Of a DNA stretch of 28,611 nt, positions 9,573 to 28,611 are shown piece by piece. Made by a program: the position numbers and the translations under genes. Position 1 is the stretch's first letter. Each line of letters opens with the position of its first letter. Below the pieces are notes generated by a model that saw nothing but the letters and a program-made list of their open reading frames with translations, was not told where the DNA came from and did not search any database. The stretch covers positions 1-28,611 of the IMG/VR virus record IMGVR_UViG_3300035162_004558. The stretch is one strand, 5' to 3'. The DNA is from a virus.

Positions 9573-12500
9573 ATGCCAGAAATTAAACACCAGTTTACCG
9601 GTGGTAAAATGAACAAGGATATGGACGAAAGACTTGTTCCCAACGGAGAGTATAGAGATGCGATGAACATACAGGTTTCAACCTCAGAGGGATCTGATGT
9701 TGGTACTATTCAAAATATATTAGGGAACACAATTGGGTGTGCTAACAACACTGACAGCTACATACAAGATGGATCACAAGTGGTGGGCTCTGTTGCTGAC
9801 GAAAAAAACGATTCTTTATATTGGCTTGTGTCTGGGCCTGGGGATGCAGGTGGACAACAACTAGCGGTTGATGAAACAGCTAGTCTAAAAGACTTAATAG
9901 TACGCCTTGATGTTTCTTCACAGCTTTGTGACCCTATTTTTGTTGACAATTACTCGTTTTGCGTTGGAATTCCATCTTCATTCAATAATTTCTCAAATTC
10001 CATAATAATATCAGACAATAGTTTGTATGCGCAGGTGACAGCGGGTATGACAGCTACCGGCTATGGTAACAACATTAATTTATTCGGACCTACACCAGTG
10101 ATTGGTATTGGCAACATAACTACGTTGGCAATTAATTACTATAATGATCTTGATTTTACTGGCACCTCCTTCACTCCACCACCAATTGTCATCTCAGATG
10201 CAACCAATACCACTATGTATATTAGGGGTTTTTGGAATGATACCACGCAAGATTACACTAACATCCATTATGATTCTACGGTGGACACGACAAACGCACC
10301 AATATCACAAGCAAATTTACCTCCAGATGGAGCGTCTCAATTCTGGATACCTATGTCAGACCTCCCCGGTCAACACAATATAACAATAGGTAGTACGATT
10401 CAAAATATTGGTGCTCAAGCTTACCACGCTTTCAACGGGGGTGCGAATGTATTAAATAATTTCAATAGCATAACGGTTAATGACATCTTCTTAGGCCAAG
10501 TTATTCACCCTTTTAACTTTCAACCCATACAAGCTTGGATAATAACAGTTGGAGATCCACTTGGGCCAGACGCGCCACTTAATAGAGTCCATAACTGCTG
10601 GAGTGATTCAAATGGCGCTCAGTTCGGGTGTGGGTTTTGGACTGGTATATGGCAGAAAGCAGCTTCAATTACTATGGGAACACAATCAAGAGATGCTCTT
10701 CCATTCTACGAGTTAGAAGCTACAATCGTTCCAATTGGCATAACAACATATACTTCTGCAGTAAATAATAACATATGGGTTGCGGGTATTTCACACGAAT
10801 GGTTAGATGACATTTATAATTCGTTTTATGATGCGAGTGGGGCCTTGATTGCTGGGCAGCAATTGCAGATCAATAACAATATAGGGTCTGGGATGAATTT
10901 TCCTCCTAATTCATGTATTGACCCAGCATCTGTCATCGATTATGCCTTATTTGATGTGGCGGCTGGGATCTACGATTCGGAATTTGCAATAATCGATTGT
11001 GACACTGGTTTAGGGCTAGCACCAGGTGCGATAACCCCAAATACAACCGGGCGACCTATAACTTTTAATATTATAGGGGACGCTCTAGAGGGTGTTATAC
11101 TAAACCAGGTAGTTAACATGGGTGGCGTGGACACTGTTTGCTTTGAGTCAGGAAGATCGCTAAATTTTGAGCACGATAGGTTGATCACTGGTATTGACAT
11201 TCTTGATGACGTGTTACTTTGGACAGATAATTTTACTGAACCTAAAAAAATAAATATAACTAGGAGCGCACAAGGTACGGATAGTGGGGGTGAAATACAT
11301 ACTGCTATTGTTAATCAAGACGCGGGGCATGATTTAGTAAATGATTATAACCCTATTGGAGAAGAACATATTACGGTTATAAGAAAAACACCGAAAAATG
11401 CCTTAAACCTAGAACTTAGCGATGGTAGAGACCCCTCGCTGAGCTACGCGGGTCGGACAAACGTGGGTGTAGACGCAATTACCACGTCAATAATTAGTTC
11501 CTCCAACAGTACTGTTAATAATGACTTTAGCTCGTTACATGTTGGTGATAGGGTTAGTTTTTTCGTAACAGAAAATCATCTGGGTAATACCTCAATGGAT
11601 TTTGCATGGGAAGAAGGAGGTTATTTATTGTTAAAGGAATTCACCAATGGCATCGCTCCAAATGTTCCCCTAGCAAATTGGACTATAAGGGGCTTAATAA
11701 CAGAGTCCCCTTTAAATAGCTTTGAAAATATATCAGCATCTTTTGTCCAAGTGGAGATAGAGGTGGTGGGTATGAATGGAACCCCGGGATCACCGGATCC
11801 AGCCGTTGGCGCCCTTGATTACACCGTTGACCTAGAGGATACTGAACCAGTTATATTTGAGGACAAGTTTCCTAGGTTTTCTTATAGATATAAATATGAG
11901 GATGGGGAACACTCCACGTTTGCACCGTGGTCCGAAGTGGCATTCTCACCTTCTGTATTTGATTATGAACCTAAAGCTGGGTGGAACACCGGGATGCTTA
12001 ACAACCTTAAATCTATAAAAGTCAAAGGCTTCCATAAAACAACGTGGGGTTCTCCACTAGGCAAAGATGTGGTGGAAGTGGATATATTATATAAGGAAGA
12101 TAGCTCACCAAACATATACCTTGTCCAGACTATTAGCCCCGTAGACATACTTACAAGCCAAAACACCACACTACCTTGGTACTCTAATGAATACTTGATA
12201 AATTCAGAGACGATAAAAGGAATAATTCCCTCTAACCAACTCTTGAGACCATGGGATAATGTTCCTAAAAAAGCCCTAGCACAGAGTATTAGTGGTAATA
12301 GAGTAATATATGCTAATTATGAACAAAACTATGATCTAAAGATTAACGGTTATATTTATAAGCCTGACTTTGGAAGTAGCCTAACTGCTTGGGCTCCACC
12401 AATAAGTGCTGTTCCAAGAAAATCAATCAAATCCTTAAGAGATTATAAGTTAGGCGTTGTTTTTGCAGATAAGTACGGAAGGGAAACACCGGTTCTAATT

Positions 12501-15500
12501 GGCGAAAATGGTGGTTTTAGAGTAGAAAAACACAACTCTATAGATGCAAATAGGCTAAGTGTTAAGCTCAAAGGCCAAGCGCCTCTTGAAATGGCTTACT
12601 ATAAGTTTTATATAAAAGAGACTTCTAACGAGTATTACAACTTAGCGATGGATCGCTGGTACAACGCAGAGGATGGTAATATATGGTTGGCGTTTCCTTC
12701 TTCCGATAGAAATAAAATGGATTTAGATACCTCTTTATATTTTAAGAGAGGGGCGGAGGGAGATCATAATGTTATTGAAAACTCTACGAAGTACAAGGTT
12801 TTAGCCATAGAAAATGAAGCGCCAGAGTTTATTAAAACAAGAAGGATACGAATAGGCGCGGTTGCACACTACGCTGGTACAGCTGCAATCTTTGGTACAC
12901 CTGCAGATCCGCTAGAAGCTGCTCCATATGTAGGTGGGGTGTCCTTTACAATGGACTACGCTCAAGGTGGTTTTTATGGGACTAGCTTGTCAAAAATGGA
13001 GGACATCAAAGAGGATATATATATGCAGTTTGTTAGCTCAAGTGATTACTCTGATCAATATAAAATATCGGAAATCACATCTGACTTTGATGCAACCGCC
13101 TCACCGGCACCTACCAATCCGCTAAACTACTTTGTAACACTTGATACCTCTTTCAAGGGCGATATAAATTTTATTTTTGATAATGCCGCGTCTCCATCAA
13201 CAATAGTTGATGACATCAAAGTTGTATTCACAAAAGCCGTTGTAGAGAATAAACCGAAGTTTGACGGTAGGTTTTTTGCTAAAATTGAAAATGATGGTAA
13301 AATTCAAACACAAATAACAGACGATGCGGTTGGTGTAAATTATATAGATATAGCGTATAAAACGGTTTATGCTTTAGAGGATGACGATAAACTTCGAACC
13401 GTCTCACAGTCAGCTCTATATGAACCACAGAGCACGTCAAACATCGCATATAACTATATCACTCTTGATTATGGGGCTCACCCGAGTGTAACTCTTGATG
13501 ATGGCCCGAGTGGTCGTAATCCTGGTGGTCTTAACTTTAACCAACTTGCCGCTAGAGAAACGTATTTCTTTGATGCTACCTCGTGGAAGACTGTAACTAC
13601 AATAGGAGGTAACTTAACGTCGCCAATGGAGAGCTTACATATATACCGTAAAAAAGAGTCGAATGCGCTTAAGGACATGGGGGTTTGGTTTATAGATAGG
13701 TCAACTAAAAAATATGAAGTAAACACAGCTGGAGTCAATGATAATGAATTTAAGTGGTTAGACCAAAACAACATGAATGATCTATACATCCCAGAATGTA
13801 TGGATGCTGCCGCGTGTGGCTACACTGGGGTGGCGGGAGAGATTGGTAATGGCATAACTCATGATGTAGCAAACGACAACTCGTTTATAGAACTTGGGTT
13901 TGGAGGTTTTGACGATCCTATAAAGGCTGATTGGAAACCAAGGCATGCAAATGATGGTTGTGGTATCCACCATTACACCCAAACTTCTTGGGATACTTTT
14001 TACGGTGTAGGGATGGATAACCCTAAATGGAACGATGCTTTAACCACTAAGTTTGTTGGTGGGTTGAGTGCTGGGTTTATTTTTAGGTGGAAAGAAGACC
14101 CAACGGAAACGATATATAAAATTGAAGGGCAAACCTCTTACCAAAGAAACTTAAGGTTTGGAAGGATTGACGAAGGGCTTTTTTGTGACCAAAGTTATCT
14201 TCATGCTAACGACGAGGACGCAACTAGACTTCTAATTGAAGCCCCGTCGTCTTACACTAAAACGTTTGGATTTAAAGTGACTCCATCTATGGATGGTTGG
14301 GATCCTAGTGCACCAGTGGGTACGTATTCAGGGCAAGCAGGTATGATGAATGGGTTGAAATTGGGTGATGGGATATTAACACCAACAACCACCGTGGCAA
14401 CAGCCGTAAGTAGTTTAGATGTAGTTATAACACTAAGTGACGTTACCTTTATAAAAGTGGGTATGTCGGTTGGTATGAATACAAATATTCCTTTGTTATC
14501 TAAAGTTATTAGTGTGGATGTAGCTAACAGTAAAATAACTATCTCCCTAGCTGCCACCGGCTCAATAGTGGTTAATGCTCCTTTTAGAAGCGGGTTTCAA
14601 ATAAGAGTAGTAGAAGAACACATGTTTGGGTTAGCTGGTAACCCAGGACTGCCAAGACAGAACTACATAGTGGTTGACAACATAACAACAGAGTGTAGCA
14701 ATGGAAACACTCTAAAGCCTATGTATAGCCTTCACAAAGGAATGAAGCTCCATGCGTACAACCTAGACAGCAGTGTAGATCTTGCTCATGATGTTATAAT
14801 AAAAGAAATAGAGCAACATGCAAGTGGTTGGAAGCTCACTTTAGCGGGGTACCAAAACCCAATGAACACCACTAACGCCACTGGTAACTTGTCAGTTGAC
14901 TTCGTGATTGGTGAAAAAATGAAATTCTATCAAGTGTCTATGAATGGGGCGAGTAATTATACAGAGCTCAACACTGATGCAAGGCAAGTAAACGCACCAA
15001 AATCTGATGACACGGTGCCTCACGAGCTAGGGAGGATCGGAGCCGTTGGTTATGATATGGTGTTTATGGAGGCTATTGATGAATATAGTGATGGAGGAAA
15101 TTTACCAGAAAATCCTTTTGTTTGGGAGACAGAACCTAAAAAAGATAATGACTTAGATATTTACTATGAGATAAGCGAGAATAATCCGACCGAGCTTAAC
15201 ACAAAAACCATCAAAGCAGCTATACCCCAAGAGTCCACCGTGGTGGGCGTCTCGGGTAATGGGGGCTCGTGGGGTAATGTGCGTGTTATTAGCAACTCGT
15301 TTGCATCTGGACAAGAGATACAAGTGTCGGATTTTTTCTGGGTTGGCCCGGGCTTAGCTTCTGACGGTACAATCCCACTAGCAGTGGGAGACATATTGAT
15401 GATAACCAAGCCTAACGGAATACAGTTTAGCGTAAAAGTGGCTGGTTGGACTCCTGACTTAACGAATCCAACCATTGCAAGAATCATTAAGCTGTCGCCA

Positions 15501-18311
15501 TCTTTATCCAACGCTGAGCATAATTTAAACTGGCATAATTGCTATTCTTTTGGGAATGGCGTTGAATCTAATAGGATCAAAGACACTTTTAATTCCCCAT
15601 TTATATCAAATGGAGTTAAAGCATCCACAACACTGGACGGTGGTTACAAGAAGGAACGTAGGAAGACCGGGTTGATATACTCCGGTATATACAACTCTAC
15701 TTCCGGTGTGAATAATTTGAATCAATTTATTCAAGCAGAGAAAATAACTAAAGATGTAAACCCAATATATGGTAGTATTCAAAAACTCCACTCAAGATCC
15801 ACGGCTGATGGCGATCTGATAGTTTTGTGTGAGGATAGAATTTTAAAAATTCTTGCAAATAAAGATGCTTTGTATAACGCTGATGGAAACCCGCAGTTAA
15901 CGGCTAGTAATAACGTTCTTGGACAAACAGTGCCTTTTGGTGGTAATTTTGGTATATCCAAAAACCCAGAATCATTTGCATCGGAAAGCTACAGAGCTTA
16001 TTTTACCGACAAAGTCAGGGGAGCAGTAGTGCGTTTGTCTAAAGACGGTTTAACAGCTATATCTAACCATGGGATGAAAGATTGGTTTAGGGATAACTTA
16101 AAGTTAAACAGCGTTTTAACGGGTAGTCATGACGATAAGAAAAGCGAATACAACATAACTTTAAAACAAGTTGTTGAAGCAGGGGATTTCCCTAGCGGTT
16201 TAACCGTCTCGTTCAGGGAGGACGTAAGAGGTTGGGTTAGTTTTAAGTCATTCGTACCAGACCACGCTATTAGCTGTGCTAATGAGTACTACACATTCAA
16301 GGGTGCTACGCCTTGGTTGCACCACGTTGAGAAATTTGATTACTTAGGAAAAGAAGTTGGTAGAAACACTTTTTACAATATCCCTAAGGATTCATCTTTT
16401 AATGTTATCCTAAATGACGCTCCTGGTAGTGTTAAATCATTTAACACTATAAGCTACGAGGGTAGTCAATCTAAGGTTACTCCATTTTTAATTAATCCAA
16501 CTACGGGACTTTCAGATGGGGAATACTATAACCTACACAGCAAAAAAGGGTGGCACGTTGACCATATATTTACAAACAAAGAAGTTGGTACGGTGAGTGA
16601 ATTTATAGAAAAAGAAGGAAAATGGTTTAACTATATAAAAGGAAAGCAAATACAGCTAGCTGGACAATATCTTTTGCCCGGAGAAACGTTAAATCCAAAA
16701 CCACTTTCAAACTTTGATCTAAGTAGTTTTTCAATCCAAGGACTTGGGAAGTTGAAGTTCATACCTCTACCTACGACTGTTGCCGCGTGCACGGATGCAA
16801 CTGCAATAAACTACGACCCAAATGCCGTGGTTGATGATGGTTCTTGTATCTACCCAGCTTTAGGGTGTACTAATCCAACAGCTAATAACTATAATTCTTC
16901 TGCTAATACCGATGATGGTTCTTGCTACTGGCTTGGCTGTACTGATGCTACTGCAACAAATTATGATGCTACAGCTACATTAGATGATGGTTCTTGTATC
17001 GCAACTGTTAATGGTTGTACAGATCCTACGGCGGCGAACTACAACCCACTAGCCAATGTGGACAACGGGACGTGCGTTCCATTTATTTATGGGTGTACTG
17101 ATGCTACTGCAGTTAACTACGACAGTACAGCGAACACTGATGATGGGAGTTGCGTAGCGACTGTTAGTGGATGTACAGATCCTAGCTATATTGAGTATAA
17201 CGCCTTTGCTAATGTAGATGATGGATCTTGTATTACTCTTATTGTAAATGGTTGTACTGATAATACCGCTATCAACTGGGACCCATCGGCTAACGTAGAT
17301 GATGGAACTTGTATTTCAACAGTTTTAGGGTGCATGGATGATGGTACGCTAACTGGATCCATTTACTACCCACAGGTGTATTCCAATTATAACCCACTTG
17401 CAACTATTGATGATGGTACATGTATTGATTGTGTTTACGGATGTACCCAGGCAATGAATTCTAATTTTAATGCTGCTGCGACGTGTGACGATAACACCTG
17501 TGCTTTAGTTACTAGTGGCTGTACGGACTGTGGCTATGTATATGAAGCGACTCTAGCTCATATTCCCTATTATTGTAATGGTGTATCTGCGGCAACCGCG
17601 CCTGGTCCAATAAATTATAATTCCGTTGCAACTATTGATGATGGAAGTTGTGTATACTTTGGCTGTACTGATCCATTAGCGAATAACTATGGTTTCCCCG
17701 GTAGTTCTGTTAATGGTCCTAATGGAAATTTCACTTATCTAAATGGTGGTGCAGTTGATGATGGCTCTTGTACTTTTGGAATTGGTGGCTGTATGGATGG
17801 CAGCACTCTTTGCGGAGGAGCATATGCTTATTCTAACTATAATTCATTAGCAACGGTTGATGACGGAAGTTGTATTTTTGCTGGAGGCTGCCCAGTCCTA
17901 ACCACTTACGTATTGACCACTAATTTACCAGCAAACAATGTTGCTCTAGTCGTGGCTACTTACAATGTCGGCGGGACGATCTACTCTGATAATCTAGGTA
18001 ATAATGGTGTTCCAATAGATTTAACTGTAACGCGTGTTGTAGTTGGTAATGATGGCACTATGCTCTACACTCAGCCTAACCAACAGGGGTGGACAAATGC
18101 TGGTAGTTGCACGAAGAAACAAAACCAACCTTTTCTTACATCAACTCAAGTAATAGGGCTTACGTCTATTTTGTCACATGTTGTTTTGTATACCAATGAT
18201 GGTTCTTGTACCGTGAGCAGATCTGATACATACACTATTGGGTGTAATGATATTACCGCTACTAATTATGTCTCTGTTGACATACTAGATGTTACACAGT
18301 GTACTTACTAA
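9573..18311 (+). CDS. Giant tail (nozzle-like) protein with C-terminal GCTD repeats
   Basis: 2912 aa, one of the longest phage tail proteins. The N-terminus, HQFTGGKMNKDMDERLVPNG followed by EYRDAMNIQVSTSEGSD, has the look of podovirus tail-tube/nozzle proteins (T7 gp12, P22 gp10 type). Blocks that I recall as strongly conserved in environmental phages recur: DDVLLWTDNFTEPKKINITR (about residue 545), a tyrosine-rich PRFSYRYKYEDGEHSTFAPW (767), RPWDNVPKKALAQ (892), an ...ANKDALYNADGNPQL... block (2071-2180) and GWVSFKSFVPDH (2220). These suggest a large beta-propeller-like body. Weakly related Gly-Met/Asp-x-Val beta modules occur at Gly658 and Gly1630. From Cys2406 the C-terminus becomes an array of cysteine/aspartate repeats, then a beta domain and two degenerate repeats. 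It ends in tandem TAA stops. Likely role: tail nozzle plus host-contact tip; the latter is inference. Confidence 0.78.
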   Translation: MPEIKHQFTGGKMNKDMDERLVPNGEYRDAMNIQVSTSEGSDVGTIQNILGNTIGCANNTDSYIQDGSQVVGSVADEKNDSLYWLVSGPGDAGGQQLAVDETASLKDLIVRLDVSSQLCDPIFVDNYSFCVGIPSSFNNFSNSIIISDNSLYAQVTAGMTATGYGNNINLFGPTPVIGIGNITTLAINYYNDLDFTGTSFTPPPIVISDATNTTMYIRGFWNDTTQDYTNIHYDSTVDTTNAPISQANLPPDGASQFWIPMSDLPGQHNITIGSTIQNIGAQAYHAFNGGANVLNNFNSITVNDIFLGQVIHPFNFQPIQAWIITVGDPLGPDAPLNRVHNCWSDSNGAQFGCGFWTGIWQKAASITMGTQSRDALPFYELEATIVPIGITTYTSAVNNNIWVAGISHEWLDDIYNSFYDASGALIAGQQLQINNNIGSGMNFPPNSCIDPASVIDYALFDVAAGIYDSEFAIIDCDTGLGLAPGAITPNTTGRPITFNIIGDALEGVILNQVVNMGGVDTVCFESGRSLNFEHDRLITGIDILDDVLLWTDNFTEPKKINITRSAQGTDSGGEIHTAIVNQDAGHDLVNDYNPIGEEHITVIRKTPKNALNLELSDGRDPSLSYAGRTNVGVDAITTSIISSSNSTVNNDFSSLHVGDRVSFFVTENHLGNTSMDFAWEEGGYLLLKEFTNGIAPNVPLANWTIRGLITESPLNSFENISASFVQVEIEVVGMNGTPGSPDPAVGALDYTVDLEDTEPVIFEDKFPRFSYRYKYEDGEHSTFAPWSEVAFSPSVFDYEPKAGWNTGMLNNLKSIKVKGFHKTTWGSPLGKDVVEVDILYKEDSSPNIYLVQTISPVDILTSQNTTLPWYSNEYLINSETIKGIIPSNQLLRPWDNVPKKALAQSISGNRVIYANYEQNYDLKINGYIYKPDFGSSLTAWAPPISAVPRKSIKSLRDYKLGVVFADKYGRETPVLIGENGGFRVEKHNSIDANRLSVKLKGQAPLEMAYYKFYIKETSNEYYNLAMDRWYNAEDGNIWLAFPSSDRNKMDLDTSLYFKRGAEGDHNVIENSTKYKVLAIENEAPEFIKTRRIRIGAVAHYAGTAAIFGTPADPLEAAPYVGGVSFTMDYAQGGFYGTSLSKMEDIKEDIYMQFVSSSDYSDQYKISEITSDFDATASPAPTNPLNYFVTLDTSFKGDINFIFDNAASPSTIVDDIKVVFTKAVVENKPKFDGRFFAKIENDGKIQTQITDDAVGVNYIDIAYKTVYALEDDDKLRTVSQSALYEPQSTSNIAYNYITLDYGAHPSVTLDDGPSGRNPGGLNFNQLAARETYFFDATSWKTVTTIGGNLTSPMESLHIYRKKESNALKDMGVWFIDRSTKKYEVNTAGVNDNEFKWLDQNNMNDLYIPECMDAAACGYTGVAGEIGNGITHDVANDNSFIELGFGGFDDPIKADWKPRHANDGCGIHHYTQTSWDTFYGVGMDNPKWNDALTTKFVGGLSAGFIFRWKEDPTETIYKIEGQTSYQRNLRFGRIDEGLFCDQSYLHANDEDATRLLIEAPSSYTKTFGFKVTPSMDGWDPSAPVGTYSGQAGMMNGLKLGDGILTPTTTVATAVSSLDVVITLSDVTFIKVGMSVGMNTNIPLLSKVISVDVANSKITISLAATGSIVVNAPFRSGFQIRVVEEHMFGLAGNPGLPRQNYIVVDNITTECSNGNTLKPMYSLHKGMKLHAYNLDSSVDLAHDVIIKEIEQHASGWKLTLAGYQNPMNTTNATGNLSVDFVIGEKMKFYQVSMNGASNYTELNTDARQVNAPKSDDTVPHELGRIGAVGYDMVFMEAIDEYSDGGNLPENPFVWETEPKKDNDLDIYYEISENNPTELNTKTIKAAIPQESTVVGVSGNGGSWGNVRVISNSFASGQEIQVSDFFWVGPGLASDGTIPLAVGDILMITKPNGIQFSVKVAGWTPDLTNPTIARIIKLSPSLSNAEHNLNWHNCYSFGNGVESNRIKDTFNSPFISNGVKASTTLDGGYKKERRKTGLIYSGIYNSTSGVNNLNQFIQAEKITKDVNPIYGSIQKLHSRSTADGDLIVLCEDRILKILANKDALYNADGNPQLTASNNVLGQTVPFGGNFGISKNPESFASESYRAYFTDKVRGAVVRLSKDGLTAISNHGMKDWFRDNLKLNSVLTGSHDDKKSEYNITLKQVVEAGDFPSGLTVSFREDVRGWVSFKSFVPDHAISCANEYYTFKGATPWLHHVEKFDYLGKEVGRNTFYNIPKDSSFNVILNDAPGSVKSFNTISYEGSQSKVTPFLINPTTGLSDGEYYNLHSKKGWHVDHIFTNKEVGTVSEFIEKEGKWFNYIKGKQIQLAGQYLLPGETLNPKPLSNFDLSSFSIQGLGKLKFIPLPTTVAACTDATAINYDPNAVVDDGSCIYPALGCTNPTANNYNSSANTDDGSCYWLGCTDATATNYDATATLDDGSCIATVNGCTDPTAANYNPLANVDNGTCVPFIYGCTDATAVNYDSTANTDDGSCVATVSGCTDPSYIEYNAFANVDDGSCITLIVNGCTDNTAINWDPSANVDDGTCISTVLGCMDDGTLTGSIYYPQVYSNYNPLATIDDGTCIDCVYGCTQAMNSNFNAAATCDDNTCALVTSGCTDCGYVYEATLAHIPYYCNGVSAATAPGPINYNSVATIDDGSCVYFGCTDPLANNYGFPGSSVNGPNGNFTYLNGGAVDDGSCTFGIGGCMDGSTLCGGAYAYSNYNSLATVDDGSCIFAGGCPVLTTYVLTTNLPANNVALVVATYNVGGTIYSDNLGNNGVPIDLTVTRVVVGNDGTMLYTQPNQQGWTNAGSCTKKQNQPFLTSTQVIGLTSILSHVVLYTNDGSCTVSRSDTYTIGCNDITATNYVSVDILDVTQCTY
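16788..17873 (+). repeat. Twelve tandem Cys/Asp-rich protein repeats (GCTD...DDGSC)
   Basis: Within the 2912-aa protein (residues 2406-2767), a unit reading G-C-T-D-x-x-A-x-N-Y-(D/N)-x-x-A-x-x-D-D-G-(S/T)-C occurs twelve times. Units 1-7 and 9 have a 20-residue core separated by 4-7 residues; units 8, 10, 11 and 12 carry inserted loops. Two degenerate units (NDGSC near 18198-18212 and GCNDITATNY near the stop) follow. Two cysteines bracket each unit and Asp/Asn residues cluster, which suggests a disulfide-stapled, probably calcium-binding fold. Codons for the same residues vary widely among units, so the units are not recent copies. I recall this repeat from secreted proteins of marine Bacteroidota; that is memory, not a search. 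Confidence 0.92.
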
Positions 18312-18324
18312 TAAACAAACAAAC

Positions 18325-18687
18325 ATGGCAATACTTCAATACGTTTTTAATTTCAGTGATGTAAATTTTTCTGCGCAAGTGGGGGATACTATGTACTTTA
18401 CTACCGGCGGAGCATTGTTGGGTGGCTTTGACGAAGCAGGCGTGGATAGTACTAGTGTTTTGGGGCCAATAACAGCTATAAATGGCACTCAAATAACGGT
18501 GCAATATGACACCACCATCGTTCTCGTCACGCCGGTAGCAGGAGATTTTTTTACTTTTGTTAAAGACAAGCGAGTTAACACAAGTAGCCTGTTGGGTTAC
18601 TATGCCAGCGTTAACTTTGTTAACACTTCAAGAGGTAAGGTGGAGTTGTTTAGTGTTGGATCAGATATCACGGAAAGTAGTAAATAA
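18325..18687 (+). CDS. Small conserved virion-module protein, 120 aa
   Basis: The start is the ATG at 18325, preceded by AACAAACAAAC. The frame is open to 18289, but that would overlap the end of the previous gene with no better initiation site. It begins with a beta sandwich-like pattern (MAILQYVFNFSDVNFSAQVG, then DTMYFT), including the Val-Gly-Asp turn seen in small beta modules of neighbouring proteins. It ends with NTSSLLGYYASVNFVNTSRG and a VELFSVGSDITESSK tail. I remember short phage proteins with this ELFxVGSxIxESSK ending in environmental phages, always near tail genes. Function unknown; a tail accessory or decoration protein is plausible. It lies 13 bases after the giant tail gene and 16 before the next. 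Confidence 0.72.
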   Translation: MAILQYVFNFSDVNFSAQVGDTMYFTTGGALLGGFDEAGVDSTSVLGPITAINGTQITVQYDTTIVLVTPVAGDFFTFVKDKRVNTSSLLGYYASVNFVNTSRGKVELFSVGSDITESSK

Positions 18688-20508: not shown

Positions 20509-20925
20509 GTGAGTGATGAATTAGTGTTTCGTAGTTTTAATGACAAGGACCATGCTTTGGTGTTTGAGTGGTGGGATTGGTGGTGGGGAGAAAACAAAGG
20601 CATAGAAAGGGAAATTTTACCACACAACGATCACTGTTACATAATAGAAAAAAACAATATACCTGTGGCTTCGGGGTTTTTATATGTGGATAAAAATGCA
20701 CCAATAGGTTATTTAACCTTCGTGGTATCTAATCCAGAGTACAAAGAAAAAGATAGACGATTTATTATAGAGCAGTTAATAATGAATACGGAAAAAGAAG
20801 CAAAATCACAAGGAATTAAGTTTATGTTTACAGTTTGCGAAGGCACACACATGAAAAACATACATAATAAGTTAGGTTGGACGATTTCAAAAGCTCCATC
20901 TTACGAAACTTTTAAATATATATAA
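20509..20925 (+). CDS. Phage-type GNAT-like N-acetyltransferase
   Basis: 138 aa, the length of a single GNAT domain. It matches the usual phage pattern: FRSFNDKD at the start, a WW...WWW cluster (residues 21-26), REILPHND (34-41), VASGFLY (53-59) and TFVVSNP (70-76). A helix of charged residues (EYKEKDRRFIIEQLIM) follows, and MKNIHNKLGWTISKA near the end corresponds to the GNAT N..L...LG(F/W) motif. The acetyl-CoA loop Q/R-x-x-G-x-G/A is not recognisable in the helix after strand 4, so it is divergent and may act on CoA poorly or be structural. The start is GTG at 20509: TAA at 20503-20505 closes the frame upstream and no ATG lies near. Substrate unknown. It lies one base before the first ejection-type gene, as T7 gene 13 precedes genes 14-16. 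Confidence 0.75.
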   Translation: MSDELVFRSFNDKDHALVFEWWDWWWGENKGIEREILPHNDHCYIIEKNNIPVASGFLYVDKNAPIGYLTFVVSNPEYKEKDRRFIIEQLIMNTEKEAKSQGIKFMFTVCEGTHMKNIHNKLGWTISKAPSYETFKYI

Positions 20926-20926
20926 T

Positions 20927-21628
20927 ATGGGTTCATCAGGAAAAGACGCGGTTAGAGACGCTAAAAACGCCGCAAACGCACAAATGACGGAGCAAAAAGC
21001 AATGCAAGCTTCTGCAAGAGCGTCTGTAGAAAAACAAAAGCAAGAGTATAAAAGTTTTAATTTTGAAAATCCTTATGCGAATATGGAAAATCAATATGCT
21101 AACATGGAGAATGTATATGAAGATCTAACTGTAAACCAGCAACAAGCTCAATTTCAAGCTCAACAAGGAGGACAACAAAGAGCTAACATAATGCAGAGCT
21201 TAAGAGGCGCTGCTGGTAGTAGTGGTATAGCAGGTTTAGCACAATCAATGGCTAACCAAGGTCAATTACAAGCACAACAAATATCAGCGTCTATTGGCGC
21301 GCAAGAATCGGCTAACCAAAGATTAACCGCTCAGGGTGCAGGCGCGATACAACAAGCAGAAAGAGCAGGCGCTGCTGCTGTGGATATGCAACAAAGGCAA
21401 GGCGAAGGTATGGTTCAACAAGCAGAGAGTGGCAGAATCTCAACTTTGTTAGGCATGGAATATGGAGAGTTGCAAGGCGCGCAAGCTGGAGTACAATCGG
21501 CTTATGGCGCTCAACAAAGTGCGATGGCCATGGAAATGGAAAGAATAAATGCAAATAAAGCGCTAACAGGAGATATAATTGGAGGCGTTACCGATATAGC
21601 AACTAGTTTTATAAAACCAAGAATTTAA
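20927..21628 (+). CDS. Putative internal virion (ejection) protein, gp14-like position
   Basis: 233 aa, very rich in Gln, Ala and Met. A polar N-terminus has a short internal repeat (PYANMENQYANMEN, then VYEDLTV). The rest is nearly all long helix with Gln/Ala (QQQAQFQAQQGGQQRANIMQ, SSGIAGLAQSMANQG, RLTAQGAGAIQQAE). The C-terminus turns glycine/isoleucine-rich and hydrophobic (TGDIIGGVTDIATSFIKPRI), a possible membrane-inserting helix. Small Ala/Gln-rich helical proteins with a hydrophobic end occur as the first ejected core proteins of podoviruses (T7 gp14, which inserts in the outer membrane). I recall very similar sequences in environmental phages. The role is inferred from composition and gene order. 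The gap to the previous stop is one base. Confidence 0.6.
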   Translation: MGSSGKDAVRDAKNAANAQMTEQKAMQASARASVEKQKQEYKSFNFENPYANMENQYANMENVYEDLTVNQQQAQFQAQQGGQQRANIMQSLRGAAGSSGIAGLAQSMANQGQLQAQQISASIGAQESANQRLTAQGAGAIQQAERAGAAAVDMQQRQGEGMVQQAESGRISTLLGMEYGELQGAQAGVQSAYGAQQSAMAMEMERINANKALTGDIIGGVTDIATSFIKPRI

Positions 21629-21640
21629 ACAAATATAGAT

Positions 21641-23716
21641 ATGGCAGTAAATTTATCAGGTAGGGCAGATGCAACATTGGTAAAAGCAGCGACAGACGCA
21701 GCGATGGCTAATGTACCAGTGGACGTTAGTAGAATAAATGAGCGTGTATCTAGATCTTATACAGCAATGACTAAAAGCGTTGGGAAATCATGGGGAAATG
21801 CTCTTAAATCTATAGGGGAAATTGGGGGTGCGTTGATGCAGAATGCAAAAGAGAAAAAAGATGATATTGGCAAACCGTTTGAAAACACCAACGTAGACGC
21901 AAGAAAAGCTGATTTTAGACGTGAAGAAATAGAAATGGATCCAAACCAATTAAAGGATAGACCTATCGCAACCGAACAGCCGGGAGACGCGAAAAGCGAA
22001 ATACAAGTTGGCGGGGGACAATCATATGATATACCATCATTTGCGTCTAAACCAACAAAACCACCAAAAGCACCTAAAGGTTTTCAAGCACTACCCACTT
22101 TTAACCATATTGATAAAGGCGGTACTTCTTCAACCATTACAGTTTCAAACACAGATGAGTTTTCAGAAAAACTAAGAGATCAAATTTATGAACTTCGTGG
22201 AAAAAAAGAAAAAGATTTAAAAGCCGTAGAGTCTAATTCAAGTTATTCAATAGATGAAAAATCATCAAAGAAAAAACAAATTAAAGCGGATCACAAAAAA
22301 GAGAAAAAAAGATTAAAAGATGTTAAGGACAGCATGCATAATTCTAATAGAAGATTTGCGGAGTTTAACGAGGTGTTAAAGAGCCAATTAGAAGGGGATA
22401 ATATTAATATGGAAGCTTCAGGTATGTATGGGGTAAACAAAATGAATTTTGCCAATGCGTTATTAAACAAGGGTACGGCTCTAGCTGACGGATCTAAAGC
22501 TGTCCAAGGTTACAATGAAAATGGAAACATGGTGTTTACGTATGTTGATAAAAATAATAGACCTATAAAAAGTGGTGGTAAAAACTTAACACTAGCAGAG
22601 GGAGATGTTGGATCTTTATTAGTACAAGAATCTCCTTTGCGGCCTTTAATGGATGGTGTAGTTGATAAAAAATCAATAGAACAAAGATATAAATATGGTT
22701 TTGATGGTATTTCAAATGAAATAGCAAGAACAGTAGAAAACAAAGTAAAGGATAAAAATACTTTTCTTGACCTAGCGTTTTACCAAAGTGAAAACACAGA
22801 TGGTTCTTTAGCTGATACATTGCACAACGTGAAGTATGATAGTAATAACGTACCAATAATTGGAGAAACTGGTTTAGCTAGAGAATTTGTTAGTGCAATA
22901 GCCACTTTAGGAAACTCTACAGACTATGACATGGATGGTGATGGTGATTTTGACAAAGATGACTACAACACCGAGGAAAATTATATGAAACTTACAAGAA
23001 AGGCTTTGTCTGGAGACGATCTTGGATTAAGTAAAATTTTATTAAAACAGCACTATCAACTACAAGCAGAGGTACACTTTAACAATGCTGTTGATGTAAA
23101 TAATCCTAATACAGTAATTAATAATACGTCATTAACAGCGCCTAACGAGGAGACTGTTCGGAAAGCTGCTAGCTCGGTTGAACCTGAAAACGTATTTCAA
23201 GGATCTAGAAACCCTAACGGCATTTTTGTTAACAAAGCCGATCAAATAAGAGTGTACAATTCCATATCAAATAAAAAGCAAGAAATTAACGGTGCTGACG
23301 GGAGTTTTTACGTTTTAAGTGGTGATGGAAATAGTTATATGAAGTTTACAGGTAGTAAAGAGAATACACCAAGCGCGGGTAGAAAGCTTTACTATTATCT
23401 TAACTCTAAAAAAGGAGCGCTTGTTGGCGCGAATAAGGGCGCAAGAGTTTCGTTTGAAAAAATGTTAGAAAACAATGCCGCTTACAGCACAAGACTACCA
23501 GGTATTCAAACACAAAAAGAAATAGACAAAGAAAACGAAGGATTAACAACCCCAACCGCTAAAGATATACAAGATTCAGTTCAGAGCGGAGAGCAATCGG
23601 CATTTAACAGAGGTCCAGATGGTAAATTACTTCCTGAAGGTTACACTTTAAATGATTTAGGTGAGGTTGTGAAGGCTGAGGGTGATAACAAGTACTATAA
23701 CATGATAAGCAAATAA
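21641..23716 (+). CDS. Putative internal virion (ejection) protein with EF-hand-like loop, 691 aa
   Basis: This is the middle of the three genes I place as ejection proteins by order. It opens with a helical Ala-rich stretch (SRSYTAMTKSVGKSWGNALK, then SIGEIGGALMQNAKEKK). Residues about 55-150 are low-complexity and Pro/Lys-rich. A Lys/Glu-rich helix follows (about residues 180-235: KEKDLKAVESNSS, KKKQIKADHKKEKKRLK). Residues 430-441 read DMDGDGDFDKDD, with Asp at positions 1, 3, 5, 7, 9 and 12 of a 12-residue loop: the spacing of a calcium-binding EF-hand. A helix (YMKLTRKALSGDDLGLSKIL) follows, but no clear partner loop. The rest is mixed, with no transglycosylase or peptidase motif seen. 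The neighbour upstream is 12 bases away, the giant gene one base. No family was recognised. Confidence 0.55.
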   Translation: MAVNLSGRADATLVKAATDAAMANVPVDVSRINERVSRSYTAMTKSVGKSWGNALKSIGEIGGALMQNAKEKKDDIGKPFENTNVDARKADFRREEIEMDPNQLKDRPIATEQPGDAKSEIQVGGGQSYDIPSFASKPTKPPKAPKGFQALPTFNHIDKGGTSSTITVSNTDEFSEKLRDQIYELRGKKEKDLKAVESNSSYSIDEKSSKKKQIKADHKKEKKRLKDVKDSMHNSNRRFAEFNEVLKSQLEGDNINMEASGMYGVNKMNFANALLNKGTALADGSKAVQGYNENGNMVFTYVDKNNRPIKSGGKNLTLAEGDVGSLLVQESPLRPLMDGVVDKKSIEQRYKYGFDGISNEIARTVENKVKDKNTFLDLAFYQSENTDGSLADTLHNVKYDSNNVPIIGETGLAREFVSAIATLGNSTDYDMDGDGDFDKDDYNTEENYMKLTRKALSGDDLGLSKILLKQHYQLQAEVHFNNAVDVNNPNTVINNTSLTAPNEETVRKAASSVEPENVFQGSRNPNGIFVNKADQIRVYNSISNKKQEINGADGSFYVLSGDGNSYMKFTGSKENTPSAGRKLYYYLNSKKGALVGANKGARVSFEKMLENNAAYSTRLPGIQTQKEIDKENEGLTTPTAKDIQDSVQSGEQSAFNRGPDGKLLPEGYTLNDLGEVVKAEGDNKYYNMISK

Positions 23717-23717
23717 T

Positions 23718-26700
23718 ATGGCAGATATAAAAGAAGTAATTGACATGATGGTTGCCGATGGCAGACCAGAAGAAGAAATTGTTGCTTTAATAGATCGTTA
23801 TAATAAAGACAAACAAGAAGAGCCGGGAAAGACGACAGACCCTGCGGTTGCAGAGCCAATAGTAGGGTCAGAAAATACGGCATCCACTGGGGAGGAAAGT
23901 TCTACGGAATCAGTACCAGGATTTGAAAGCTTTGGTAAGCTAGCAATGAAACAATCAGACAAAGATAAGTTACCTAGTTTTCTTGAAAAAACTAAAAAAG
24001 GCCTAGAAGATGGAAACGTAGATAATGTTGCTGAGTTTGGTTATGCTTTGTATGATATGATGGCTAATAGATTACCATCCGCTGTTTCAGGTGGCTGGGC
24101 TGAACAAGGTGGTTTGGAAGAAAAGCTACAGCTAGAAGAGCAAGGGGCTGATATTGATGATGAAACCCTACAAACAGTTATCGAAAACTATAACATAGCT
24201 AAGAACACGGCTCCTTCGCTCGCTATGAAAAAGTTTACGGATATATATGCTGAGGAAAATAAAAAAATTAAAAAAGATGATCCAGAAGCTAGTGATTGGT
24301 GGGGTTTTATAAAAGCCGCAAAAGAAGAGCCAGGTACAGCGGCAGAACTATTAGTTAGATCTGCGGCTGGTCAAGCTAGAGCTTTTTTAACTAGTGAAAC
24401 AGCTAGAACAGAGGCTTTGGAAGGTGCTGTTGTAGGTGGTAGCGCTGCGGTTACGTTTAACCTTATACCGGGACTAGCGGTATTGCCAGAAGAATTATTA
24501 ACAGTGCCAACAATGATGTACATGGGTGGTATTGGTAAGCTAAGCCAACAAATGGAAATAGGTAATACTATGGTTGAGCTTTTAGACGGCGCGCTAGAAG
24601 GTAAAGATTTTACTTTAGAAAATGTTAAGGAAGTTTTGAAAGACGAAGATAAGCTTGATGATATTAGATTTAAGTCTTGGGCTAGAGGAACTGCTATCGG
24701 GGCAATAGAAGCTATTACCGGAGGTATTGCTGGTAAAGTAGCTAAACTAGCAAAGCCAATAGGTAAACTAGCTCAAACAGGGATTGCAGCTAGTACGGAG
24801 GCTTTTGGTGGTGGTTTAGGTGAATTCGCAGGTCAAAAAGCGGCTGGTCAAGAGACTGATGTTCTTGATATTGGTTTTGAATCTTTTGCTGGCATGTCAA
24901 CAACACCACTGAGTGCTGGTAAGGCTATTTTTGGTAAAAAAGCTAAGTACGCGGTAACCGACAAAGATGGAAATGAAACTAAGGTTTCATATTCTAAAAT
25001 GAAAAAGTTTATTGAAACCGCTAGCAACGCAGATATTGCAAAAGCAAATATCACCATACAAAACGATAACGATTTAGCTAAGTTGGCTTATGATAAGCAA
25101 GAGACCGCTGTAATAGAATCTCAAGTTAATGAAAAAGTTAGTGATCAAAGCGATAGAGATATCTTAGTTGAAAAACAAAAAGAATTAAACAAAGCAAATG
25201 CTGATGTTAAAAAGAAAGGTTCTAAAGCTGTTCCTGGAGCTGTTGAAAAAGTAAAGTCTATTCAAGGTGAGATTGACGTGATAATTGACAAGTATGCCGG
25301 TGTTGATGGCAGGACAAAAGATGTTAAAGCTAGAAAAAAAGCAGCCGCTGATGTACGCAAGACTGTTAGAGAAAACAATCTTAAAAATACTATTGAGTTT
25401 TTGCAAAAAAACAAAGAGTACGCTGGTAAAGATGTTGTAATAGCTGATGATGATGCAGCCGCTCAACTAGCTCACGACAAAGCTATTGAGGAGTATAACG
25501 CTAAAAACCCAGACAACAAGATTAAAGCGGAAGATGTATCAGGTTCTGATGGATTTATAGTTGGTGATGTTATTGTTATCAACAAAGATATAGCCGGTCA
25601 AACGGGTCAGATAAACGTTGGAGCGCATGAACTACTACATGGTATCGTAGCTAAGCATATGAAGGGCTTAACTACCGAGGAACAAACAAGTTTAATATCG
25701 GACTTTACAAACACTATAACTAAAGATCAAAAAGATTACATACAAACAGAAATTAAACGTAGGATTGCTGCTGGTGAAGATTTAGACATAAATACTACTG
25801 AAGAGTGGTTGACGGTGTTTTCTGATGGTATAACTAAAGGTGAAATAACTTTTGATAAAGGAGTTTTTGGTAAACTGAAAGAAGTTATAGAAAGAATATT
25901 TAAAGGAAAAGGTTACAATAAAGAGTTTGAAAATGGAAAGGCAGTTTATGACTTTTTAAAAGATTATCAAAAAAGTGTTGCTGCAGGCGGTGAAATAAGT
26001 GCTAGAGCTCAAAAACTAGCGAGTGGTGGAACTACAGCTACGAGTACGAGTAGATCTATGTCAACTCCGCTAGAAGCTATTAACGAACTTATACCTAAAA
26101 GCATAAAAACTAAAAAAGATTATGATGCTTTTGTGCAGGATCGTAGAGCATTTCCAGCGGTGTTTACAGCTACAATGGGTGACGGTGTTATTAGTAACTA
26201 CGTTAAATCAAAATCTATAGGAGGCGAATATCAAGGAGCTATTGAGTCTGTTCAAAACAGGCTTACAAATTTTGATCCTGAAGCTACAAGAGCTGATGGT
26301 ACAACTGTTGGTCCAGAGGGTTTTGGTGAATTTATATTTGCTAACACTAGGTTTGGTAAGCTAGATTCTAAAAAGAAGTTATTTGAAGCTGGTGAAAAAG
26401 CTAAGAGAGAAGAAAGCATCGATAGCGCAGAGGCTAGACAAATAGAAGATAAGCCAACAACAAAAAAATCTGAACCTAAAGGTCAAAAAGCTAGAGTATT
26501 AAAAAGTTTAGCCGATGTTAATCTTGATAACAAAGAAATAATATCTTCTACGGCTAGAGCTGAGATAGATGCTTTAATAGAGCAAAACCCTAAAAACCTA
26601 GAAGCGCAAATAACTAATATTATAGATAAAGAAATTACCAAAGCCGTTAAAGCTCAAATGGGTAAAATATCTAATGTAAAAGGTGAAGTAGTTATTAGTG

Positions 26701-28611
26701 AAGAGTATAAAGCGTTTATAGCTTTAAACTATGAAAACATCGTTCAAAGTTTAGACGTTAATACAATAAAAAATAATTACAAAACATTATTTGAGCTTAC
26801 AGAAATAGGTAAAGAAGATAGAAGAACTAGAAAGTCAGATAAACCTAGCCTCAAGAAAGATAGTAATTATAGAAAGGCTATTTTCAAAATAGAAACCAAC
26901 AAAGCTAAGTTTACTAAGTTCTTTACGGAGGGAGGATATACAACTTTATTAGCTAGACAAAAAGGATTAGCAAATCAAATAGCTAAAGGAATAGTTGAAG
27001 ATATTGTTAACAATGAGATAATTAACAATTCGGAAAATAATGAAGCTATAGTAAATGCTGAGCTACGTAGTGTTATAAATTCTTTAAACAAACAAAAGAA
27101 AGAAGTTCAAGGCAACTACAATGATCAAATCAAATTTAGTAAAACTGTTTCAGACCAAACAAGTCAATTATCAATTAAGGTGCAAGAAGCCGAATACACT
27201 AACGAGGTTTTTGATACAAAAACTGGTAGACCGGTAGATAAATTTGATAGAGATGGTGATCCTTGGTTGCCCGAGGCTTATGAAAATATATTTAGCCTTG
27301 TGCAAAGTGGTAATATTATACCGAAGGGAACAAAAAATAATATTTTTAGAAAACTGATGGAAAAGCTAAAACTTCCAACAGACAAAACAATAGGTGATAC
27401 TTTTGAAAGATGGTATTATGCTGGCGCTAAAGAAGTAGGTTTGCTTGCTGATGGATTTGTATTGTCAGAGGATACGATTATGATTCAATCCATAGGTAGT
27501 TTTATACGTAAAGCTGTTCAAGCCCCTGACTTATTATTAGAATTTATTAATTCTGTAGGAAGAAAAGTTCAAGTTGGATTTGAAATAAAAGCAACAGGTA
27601 ACACAAAAATGGGACACAACAAGCCGCTTGTAAAAGATCCAAGTAATCCTGATTATAAATACAAAAAAAACGCAGGTTTAAAAGGTAATCCAAAAAATCC
27701 TAAATTTGTAAACGATAAGTTAGAACAAGTCTTTAATAACGTTGCCGAGAAAGCGGGGAAGCTTTCGGAACACTTAAAAAAAGAGTTTAATGTTGATTGG
27801 AAGGATAGAACTGATTTTATACCTTTTAAAAGTGAAGATGGTAGAGTGGTTTATAATGACCAAGTCGTAAAAGATTTAAAAGCGGCAGCTAGAGACGAAA
27901 GCGTTACTATTAATGGTGATTTTATAGCCAACCATTATAACGCTAAAGGAGTTTTTTACATACAAATAGCTGATAAAGGATTGTTTTATTTAGGCTCAGA
28001 CCCTTTGGGTCTTGCAGAATCATTAGGCGTAACTAAGTTTGAAGGAGAATTTGCTTTGCAAGGTAGGTTGTTAGTCAGTAATAAAACTGTAAAAGGAAAA
28101 AAAATTGGCCGCTATGCTAGTATAGATGTAGAGCCAGTAATGGACCCAAGAAAAATAACATCTAAAGTTGGTTTTAGTCTTGATAAACCTGGTGGTTGGA
28201 AAGCACTTAAAAAAGCCTTAAAAAACGCGCCTGTAATTTCTGGCGAGGTTAATGATATTAACACGTTTAAAAATTCTATTAACTTCTCTAGATCTGCTAA
28301 CAATCCTACAAAAGGCATTACAGTTCTAGATTTTGATGATACACTGGCTACGAGTAAATCTTTAATTAGGTTTACAAAACCCGATGGAACTAAAGGTACT
28401 TTAAATGCAGAGCAATATGCCAGTACATATCAAGAGTTAACTGACTTAGGTTATAAGTGGGACTTTTCAGAGTTTAATAAAGTTGTAGATGGTAAGGTAG
28501 CACCGTTATTCAACAAAGCAATGAAATTGCAAGGTAAGTTTGGTCCTGAAAATATGTTTGTACTAACAGCTAGACCAGCAGAAGCGGCTCCAGCTATATT
28601 TGCTTTTTTAC
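23718..28611 (+). CDS. Giant polyvalent protein: zincin, nuclease-like and HAD-like domains (3'-truncated)
   Basis: The frame runs 1631 codons without a stop and is cut by the right edge. ATG 23718 is one base after the previous stop. Residues 1-70 are acidic and disordered. Residues ~230-410 are Gly/Ala-rich with hydrophobic stretches (AVVGGSAAVTFNLIPGLAVL, TGGIAGKVAKLAKPIG), possibly membrane-active. Residues 470-600 are helical and charged. At 632-645 comes a zincin motif NVGAHELLHGIVAK (His637, Glu638, His641); a later EEW (Glu695/696) could be the third zinc ligand. At 1226-1291 a PD-(D/E)XK-nuclease-like pattern appears: GDTFE (1226-1230), Asp1271 and FEIK (Glu1289, Lys1291). At 1538 a HAD-like domain starts (LDFDDTL, Asp1538 and Asp1540), with motif II VLTARP (Thr1617) just before the edge; the catalytic Lys and last Asp motif are outside. 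By position it corresponds to the largest ejection protein. Domain calls are by eye. Confidence 0.72.
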   Translation, partial: MADIKEVIDMMVADGRPEEEIVALIDRYNKDKQEEPGKTTDPAVAEPIVGSENTASTGEESSTESVPGFESFGKLAMKQSDKDKLPSFLEKTKKGLEDGNVDNVAEFGYALYDMMANRLPSAVSGGWAEQGGLEEKLQLEEQGADIDDETLQTVIENYNIAKNTAPSLAMKKFTDIYAEENKKIKKDDPEASDWWGFIKAAKEEPGTAAELLVRSAAGQARAFLTSETARTEALEGAVVGGSAAVTFNLIPGLAVLPEELLTVPTMMYMGGIGKLSQQMEIGNTMVELLDGALEGKDFTLENVKEVLKDEDKLDDIRFKSWARGTAIGAIEAITGGIAGKVAKLAKPIGKLAQTGIAASTEAFGGGLGEFAGQKAAGQETDVLDIGFESFAGMSTTPLSAGKAIFGKKAKYAVTDKDGNETKVSYSKMKKFIETASNADIAKANITIQNDNDLAKLAYDKQETAVIESQVNEKVSDQSDRDILVEKQKELNKANADVKKKGSKAVPGAVEKVKSIQGEIDVIIDKYAGVDGRTKDVKARKKAAADVRKTVRENNLKNTIEFLQKNKEYAGKDVVIADDDAAAQLAHDKAIEEYNAKNPDNKIKAEDVSGSDGFIVGDVIVINKDIAGQTGQINVGAHELLHGIVAKHMKGLTTEEQTSLISDFTNTITKDQKDYIQTEIKRRIAAGEDLDINTTEEWLTVFSDGITKGEITFDKGVFGKLKEVIERIFKGKGYNKEFENGKAVYDFLKDYQKSVAAGGEISARAQKLASGGTTATSTSRSMSTPLEAINELIPKSIKTKKDYDAFVQDRRAFPAVFTATMGDGVISNYVKSKSIGGEYQGAIESVQNRLTNFDPEATRADGTTVGPEGFGEFIFANTRFGKLDSKKKLFEAGEKAKREESIDSAEARQIEDKPTTKKSEPKGQKARVLKSLADVNLDNKEIISSTARAEIDALIEQNPKNLEAQITNIIDKEITKAVKAQMGKISNVKGEVVISEEYKAFIALNYENIVQSLDVNTIKNNYKTLFELTEIGKEDRRTRKSDKPSLKKDSNYRKAIFKIETNKAKFTKFFTEGGYTTLLARQKGLANQIAKGIVEDIVNNEIINNSENNEAIVNAELRSVINSLNKQKKEVQGNYNDQIKFSKTVSDQTSQLSIKVQEAEYTNEVFDTKTGRPVDKFDRDGDPWLPEAYENIFSLVQSGNIIPKGTKNNIFRKLMEKLKLPTDKTIGDTFERWYYAGAKEVGLLADGFVLSEDTIMIQSIGSFIRKAVQAPDLLLEFINSVGRKVQVGFEIKATGNTKMGHNKPLVKDPSNPDYKYKKNAGLKGNPKNPKFVNDKLEQVFNNVAEKAGKLSEHLKKEFNVDWKDRTDFIPFKSEDGRVVYNDQVVKDLKAAARDESVTINGDFIANHYNAKGVFYIQIADKGLFYLGSDPLGLAESLGVTKFEGEFALQGRLLVSNKTVKGKKIGRYASIDVEPVMDPRKITSKVGFSLDKPGGWKALKKALKNAPVISGEVNDINTFKNSINFSRSANNPTKGITVLDFDDTLATSKSLIRFTKPDGTKGTLNAEQYASTYQELTDLGYKWDFSEFNKVVDGKVAPLFNKAMKLQGKFGPENMFVLTARPAEAAPAIFAFL

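Follow-up and report, generated by a model that had tools for sequence, protein, structure and literature searches.

In phage T7 the proteins gp14, gp15 and gp16 are encoded in the order small, mid-size, giant. Other phages carry giant proteins that also bear on the locus described here. Polyvalent proteins, as presented in the main text of PMC5512222, are giant phage proteins made of several domains, for which injection into the host is predicted; the zincin is their commonest domain, and self-processing has been proposed for them. The virion RNA polymerase gp50 of coliphage N4 is a giant, ejected protein with an HExxH motif and a large, mostly helical C-terminal domain, for which a beads-on-a-string model has been described (PMC12633501). 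In PhicrAss001 the cargo proteins gp45–gp47 were found in virions by mass spectrometry (PMC10172136); their genes follow that of the muzzle protein gp44.

The window analysed here is the whole of the 28,611-base virus contig IMGVR_UViG_3300035162_004558, a marine phage fragment in which the giant gene is the last of the virion operon and which holds only the front part of the giant protein. The gene begins with ATG and runs as a single open frame of 1631 codons (23718–28610, + strand), open at the contig end. The features of the giant and of the genes preceding it are:

9573–18311, +: 2912-aa tail protein with a crAss muzzle C-terminal domain (PF25729, E 2.5e-6, above the Pfam cut-off)
20509–20925, +: GNAT-like small protein; MW202828 has an annotated acetyltransferase gene similarly placed
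20927–21628, +: 233-aa Ala/Gln-rich protein, candidate first ejection protein (by position only)
21641–23716, +: 691-aa protein directly upstream of the giant, candidate second ejection protein (by position only)
23718–28610, +: giant ORF, first 1631 codons; 3′ end beyond the contig (full-length relatives 2068–3620 aa)
24093–25451, +: N-terminal module, residues 126–578, with a Gly/Ala-rich, weakly hydrophobic stretch; phrog_32588 match
25335–26087, +: zincin-like metallopeptidase domain, residues 540–790 (HELLH at 25626–25640, Glu696 at 25803–25805)
26466–27176, +: conserved domain, residues 917–1153 (NPKNL...IETNKAKFTK), seen in aligned relatives
27135–27146, +: border motif 1, IKFSKT (FSKT, residues 1140–1143)
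27195–28283, +: swappable slot, here PD-(D/E)XK nuclease-like, residues 1160–1522 (E1230, D1271, E1289, K1291)
28284–28295, +: border motif 2, INFSRS (FSRS, residues 1523–1526)
28296–28610, +: HAD domain, residues 1527–1631; of its motifs the window includes just I and II; complete in relatives

The median length of the full-length relatives is 2654 aa; by this measure roughly the first 60% of the giant is probably in the window, with a C-terminal domain of ∼690 aa beyond the contig end. The order of parts is N-terminal module, zincin, conserved domain, PD-(D/E)XK slot, HAD and C-terminal domain. A sequence-only reading of this DNA had described one frame with HExxH, PD-(D/E)XK-like and HAD signatures in that order. 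This is confirmed, and the signatures are conserved in homologues. Its idea of three enzyme domains in one giant is borne out by invariant catalytic residues, and structure models back two of the domains, the zincin match being the weaker. The 'long charged helices' named as spacers are present in part, but the spacers also include a conserved domain of ∼235 aa; the N-terminal module, the repeated linker motif and the missing extent of the protein had been overlooked. In composition-shuffled copies, HExxH appeared by chance in 0.2% and a HAD-type motif in 0.1%; it is conservation among homologues that is decisive for taking the enzyme signatures as real.

At least 129 distinct relatives, 113 of them full length, were found in viral metagenome contigs. 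Among 2.9 million viral contigs, a first scan picked out six close loci; further alignment scans gave the best 80 of 232 confirmed matches for the HAD part, the best 80 of 89 for the C-terminal part and 14 for the conserved domain, so that the loci retained are the best-scoring matches. HAD and C-terminal domain occur in essentially all family members, an observation that is partly built in because members were gathered by one or the other of these parts; still, on contigs of sufficient length, HAD-seeded members also had the C-terminal domain and C-terminal-seeded members also had HAD. Direct tblastn searches of 50,697 phage records with the giant, its HAD part and its C-terminal part gave no relative; the one exception is a weak C-terminal match (E 8e-4) that is partial, covering 15% of the query. 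Among bacterial and archaeal genome contigs there were five matches only, all in metagenome-assembled contigs. Judged by sequence, this is a large family of giant proteins, unseen in cultured phages, with short, recurring linker motifs between which predicted enzyme modules are swapped.

The HExxH zincin is present in nearly all family members. In the window it reads HELLH (residues 637–641), and its H, E and H together with a downstream Glu (E696 in the window) are 100% invariant in 97 zincin relatives; E157 is invariant in a 71-row zincin alignment. The AlphaFold2 model of this region is confident (mean pLDDT 86.7). Its best structural alignments are to lethal-factor-type zincin folds (for anthrax lethal factor, over residues 50–262) and then to PPEP-3, with Z of 5.8–4.3, below the trustworthy level of the tool; Foldseek alone gave nothing significant for this model. 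The assignment as a putative zincin rests mainly on the residues plus topology. It had been suggested that the peptidase may serve the wall step of infection. This idea found no support: we saw nothing that ties the zincin to peptidoglycan, the role proposed for zincins in polyvalent proteins is protein processing (main text of PMC5512222), and the sole wall-type enzyme in the family data is a GH108 match in one relative.

The HAD motif in the window is DFDDT (residues 1538–1542, nt 28329–28343), and the window ends after motif II. Across 136 aligned copies from 129 proteins, motifs I–IV (DxD-T, the T of LTAR, K and DD) are 100% invariant, and it is by these motifs that we assign the domain to the HAD superfamily; a PDB sequence search returned no HAD match. 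The C-terminal domain was found in 127 sequences, and its comparison with Pfam and PHROG gave nothing convincing. In one relative (L006) an extra insert of acetyltransferase-like look lies between HAD and C-terminal domain, at about residues 1840–2020. The N-terminal module matches the unannotated phrog_32588 (E 8.5e-28), and 42 of the 131 family proteins carry a related module; strong hydrophobic segments are no general feature of the family. The conserved domain that precedes the slot was seen in 14 viral loci and shows 48–79% identity to the window in five aligned relatives. PDB sequence profile searches gave no credible match; rows naming PPARgamma, an ADP-ribosyltransferase and PPR were set aside as chance or repeat artefacts.

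The nuclease residues E1230...D1271...E1289-x-K1291 are 100% invariant in 26 aligned copies and in a 25-row alignment. In the AlphaFold2 model (mean pLDDT 69.5) most core blocks reach ∼80–90, while the loops are not confident. The first 11 rows of the VIA-align comparison were all restriction enzymes or the Hjc Holliday junction resolvase; HhaI came top (Z 8.4, 176 residues), and Hjc, HinP1I, MspI, AvaII and SwaI were also among the best. As modelled, the nuclease region has a restriction-endonuclease-like fold, though Foldseek alone gave nothing significant. The check for fold matches of the separate segments came out in favour of the nuclease; for the zincin, zincin folds ranked best at low Z.

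This nuclease is found in about one-fifth of the family, and elsewhere the same slot holds unrelated sequence. Coverage along the proteins is near-total over HAD and C-terminal domain, intermediate over N-terminal module and zincin, and low in the slot before HAD. By coverage-based clustering the slots form 19 groups; single-linkage clustering was rejected, as it chained the slots into one large cluster via partial similarity. Pfam scans of 54 sampled slot and N-terminal segments left most without a match, with a Zeta_toxin/AAA_33-type kinase in three and the GH108 glycosyl hydrolase in one. The nuclease slot had no match in plasmids. A module starting with FSKSHRxxYEK lies after HAD in L004, and a similar start is seen before HAD in L057, L085, L141, L156 and L157, which, by sequence, is an example of module relocation. 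Since the nuclease occurs in about one-fifth of members and HAD in every one, this distribution suggests that the nuclease is a phage-specific load and HAD a shared one.

Module borders are marked by the motif hydrophobic-x-F-S-[K/R]-[S/T]. We counted 174 copies of FS[KR][ST] in 131 giants, against a mean of 16 and a maximum of 26 in shuffled sequences, a comparison that overstates the number of independent events because some copies are homologous by descent; the stronger point is that the motif recurs after unrelated sequences at different borders. There are 47 copies at the junction of HAD with the C-terminal domain and 38 at the junction of slot with HAD, where about one each would be expected under uniform placement, and many of the remaining copies are near the slot start. 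Of 127 proteins, 119 have FS where HAD meets the C-terminal domain, and the residue after it is most often K. The motif is depleted in 582 other ORFs of the same contigs (4 observed versus 11.4 expected). Its codon use is that of the background, so selection acts on the peptide; a role as a DNA recombination site, considered for the motif, is unsupported, given this codon use and the use of both serine codon families. Thus, constant parts, exchanged parts and a border motif are all observed in these giants.

One could speculate that hxFS[K/R][S/T] is the site of the giant's own zincin. A single packaged polyprotein would then be split into its individual enzymes once delivered, or shortly before, and modules would be exchanged between the sites, making the giant a self-cleaving, reloadable cargo. 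We hold this as a tentative and rather doubtful proposal. The motif would also be compatible with a signal for docking or packaging, or with a flexible linker retained where modules are exchanged. Motif copies show a weak association with zincin clade (mean 1.5 versus 0.8, p 0.011, uncorrected for relatedness), which is why this co-variation is not used as proof. Head proteases of giant phages and T4 cleave after Glu (PMC5694885), so the border motif is not theirs. Caution also comes from the N4 virion RNA polymerase, which has an HExxH domain and, according to the main text of PMC5512222, is packaged unprocessed.

A same-strand gene cluster runs from the large terminase subunit, cut at the window start, to the giant, and includes a portal and a capsid-type protein (PHROG matches). 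These two proteins group the phage with Flavobacteriia podoviruses, namely MW202828, Maribacter phage Panino, the Flavobacterium elemo phages and Cellulophaga phi38:1, each of which has one very long gene at the corresponding end. In the window the giant closes the virion cluster, preceded by the genes for the GNAT-like, Ala/Gln-rich and mid-size proteins, as the sequence-only reading had it. The muzzle match of the 2912-aa protein covers the C-terminal domain only; the PF25729 match is strong in phi38:1 and elemo, where, as in the window, the muzzle lies upstream of the giant. Downstream of this match, about ten short repeats with Cys, of the type GCTDPTAxNYNPxANVDDGSC, form the end of the 2912-aa protein. 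A 132-aa ORF (18289–18687) begins inside the end of its gene, which runs to 18311; the overlap is 23 bases, provided that the start listed for the ORF is correct.

No sequence homology, profile comparison included, was detected between the giants of the cultured relatives and the tested modules of the window giant; the gene in its position is annotated structural in phi38:1 and elemo, and because of this result the label is transferred by position only. A mass-spectrometry origin of the phi38:1 label could not be traced; the record cites phi18:1 gp101, a cross-reference that looks odd, since PMC11946311 describes phi18:1 as a siphovirus of 39.2 kb and 65 ORFs. BLAST aligned a short N-terminal stretch with the MW202828 giant (E ∼1e-6, low-complexity filter off), but the profile did not reproduce this match, and it was not used. 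The MW202828 giant (L009 741–12320) has 3859 aa and two HExxH motifs (HEFGH); its annotation as a reticulocyte binding/rhoptry protein is most likely a misannotation. A domain of the tRNA-methyltransferase type (phrog_4752, E 1.7e-16) is found in the Panino giant (L008 18229–23718), and DUF3293 (E 1e-12) in the elemo giant (L010 19983–31067), so the enzymes of the last late gene differ between phages. In all four complete relatives of the window locus an ORF of 343–359 aa, without a Pfam match, lies directly 3′ of the giant:

18676–19704 in L004: ORF after the giant
17762–18796 in L006: ORF after the giant
17421–18497 in L007: ORF after the giant
17158–18207 in L005: ORF after the giant

We consider it most likely, with a probability of roughly 0.6, that the giant is polyvalent cargo of a Flavobacteriia-type podovirus, packaged in the virion and passed out through the muzzle into the host, either together with the DNA or ahead of it. 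The polyvalent proteins of Iyer et al., the virion cargo of PhicrAss001 and the layout of N4 gp50 make an ejected polyvalent protein the best reading; delivery into the host, which rests on position, is its most plausible form. A late giant that is not ejected would act in the producing cell, in head maturation as a peptidase, in degradation of host DNA or in lysis timing. Its gene does lie within a late-type virion gene cluster, and a zincin and a nuclease could work during assembly; still, size and mixing of enzymes are typical of polyvalent proteins predicted to be packaged or injected (main text of PMC5512222), and the position is that of PhicrAss001 virion cargo and of the genes annotated structural in phi38:1 and elemo. 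We therefore regard such a role as unlikely.

It is quite improbable that the protein is mainly a structural ejectosome or inner-core component like T7 gp16, with enzyme motifs that are incidental or decayed. Decay would not leave catalytic residues 100% invariant over many divergent relatives, and neither Pfam nor PHROGs reported the T7 gp16 family, even though the small, mid-size, giant order resembles gp14-gp15-gp16 and the large C-terminal domain is the most constant non-enzymatic part. An exchangeable slot between constant parts and the Zeta-toxin-like kinase domains of some relatives call to mind a toxin-like or exclusion protein directed against the host or against competing phages, built like polymorphic toxins with exchangeable warheads; yet the constant part is C-terminal, unlike in typical polymorphic toxins, and the gene sits in a virion gene cluster, which leaves this a very slim chance.

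For the giant as ejected cargo, the N- and C-terminal modules would serve packaging and passage, and the domains would pass through like beads on a string, refolding once they are inside the host. The zincin would act on proteins and possibly cut the giant itself at the hxFS[K/R][S/T] borders, while the nuclease may attack DNA, e.g. the chromosome or competing elements. HAD would dephosphorylate a substrate important in every infection, since it is never exchanged. If this is true, widespread uncultured aquatic phages deliver a modular enzyme set as one giant protein. The family would allow a natural comparison of fixed with exchanged modules. With the border motif, the old idea of polyvalent zincins processing their own chain becomes open to direct test by ordinary protein chemistry.

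The predicted zincin, PD-(D/E)XK and HAD domains stand in one phage polypeptide and, as in the polyvalent proteins (Iyer et al. 2017, main text of PMC5512222), several unrelated enzymes share one chain. A term search of the main text of PMC5512222 found no PD-(D/E)XK, HAD-superfamily or phosphatase domains, and what sets the present family apart is the fixed pair of HAD and C-terminal domain, the exchange slot and the repeated border motif. It is best read as a new family of polyvalent ejected proteins, for which we infer packaging, ejection and enzyme activity. With PhicrAss001 (cargo gp45–gp47, gp49 and gp50; PMC10172136) the locus shares the order muzzle, cargo, giant and the muzzle C-terminal domain, whereas crAss giants are RNA polymerase-related; hhalign of the neighbour and giant profiles against PhicrAss001 gp43–gp47 and gp49 gave none above the 20% listing limit, a short portal match excepted.

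The likeness to T7 gp16 is in size class and in position after small and mid-size internal proteins, but full-length relatives of the giant are clearly larger. The parallel to gp16 that had been drawn is not supported as a specific relationship, no sequence link being seen: Pfam and PHROGs did not report the gp16 family for the giant, and a Pfam match to a lytic transglycosylase, such as gp16 has at its N-terminus, is absent from the ORF, although a missing match is weak evidence. The neighbourhood is instead crAss-like, the muzzle match being shared by the window and related phages. Like N4 gp50, the giant combines an N-terminal part, an enzyme, an HExxH domain and a large C-terminal domain. 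The likeness is one of layout, the giant having a nuclease and HAD where gp50 has an RNA polymerase domain, which was not identified here. N4 gp50 nevertheless offers the closest layout, and on the best reading the giant resembles the N4 virion RNA polymerase more than T7 gp16.
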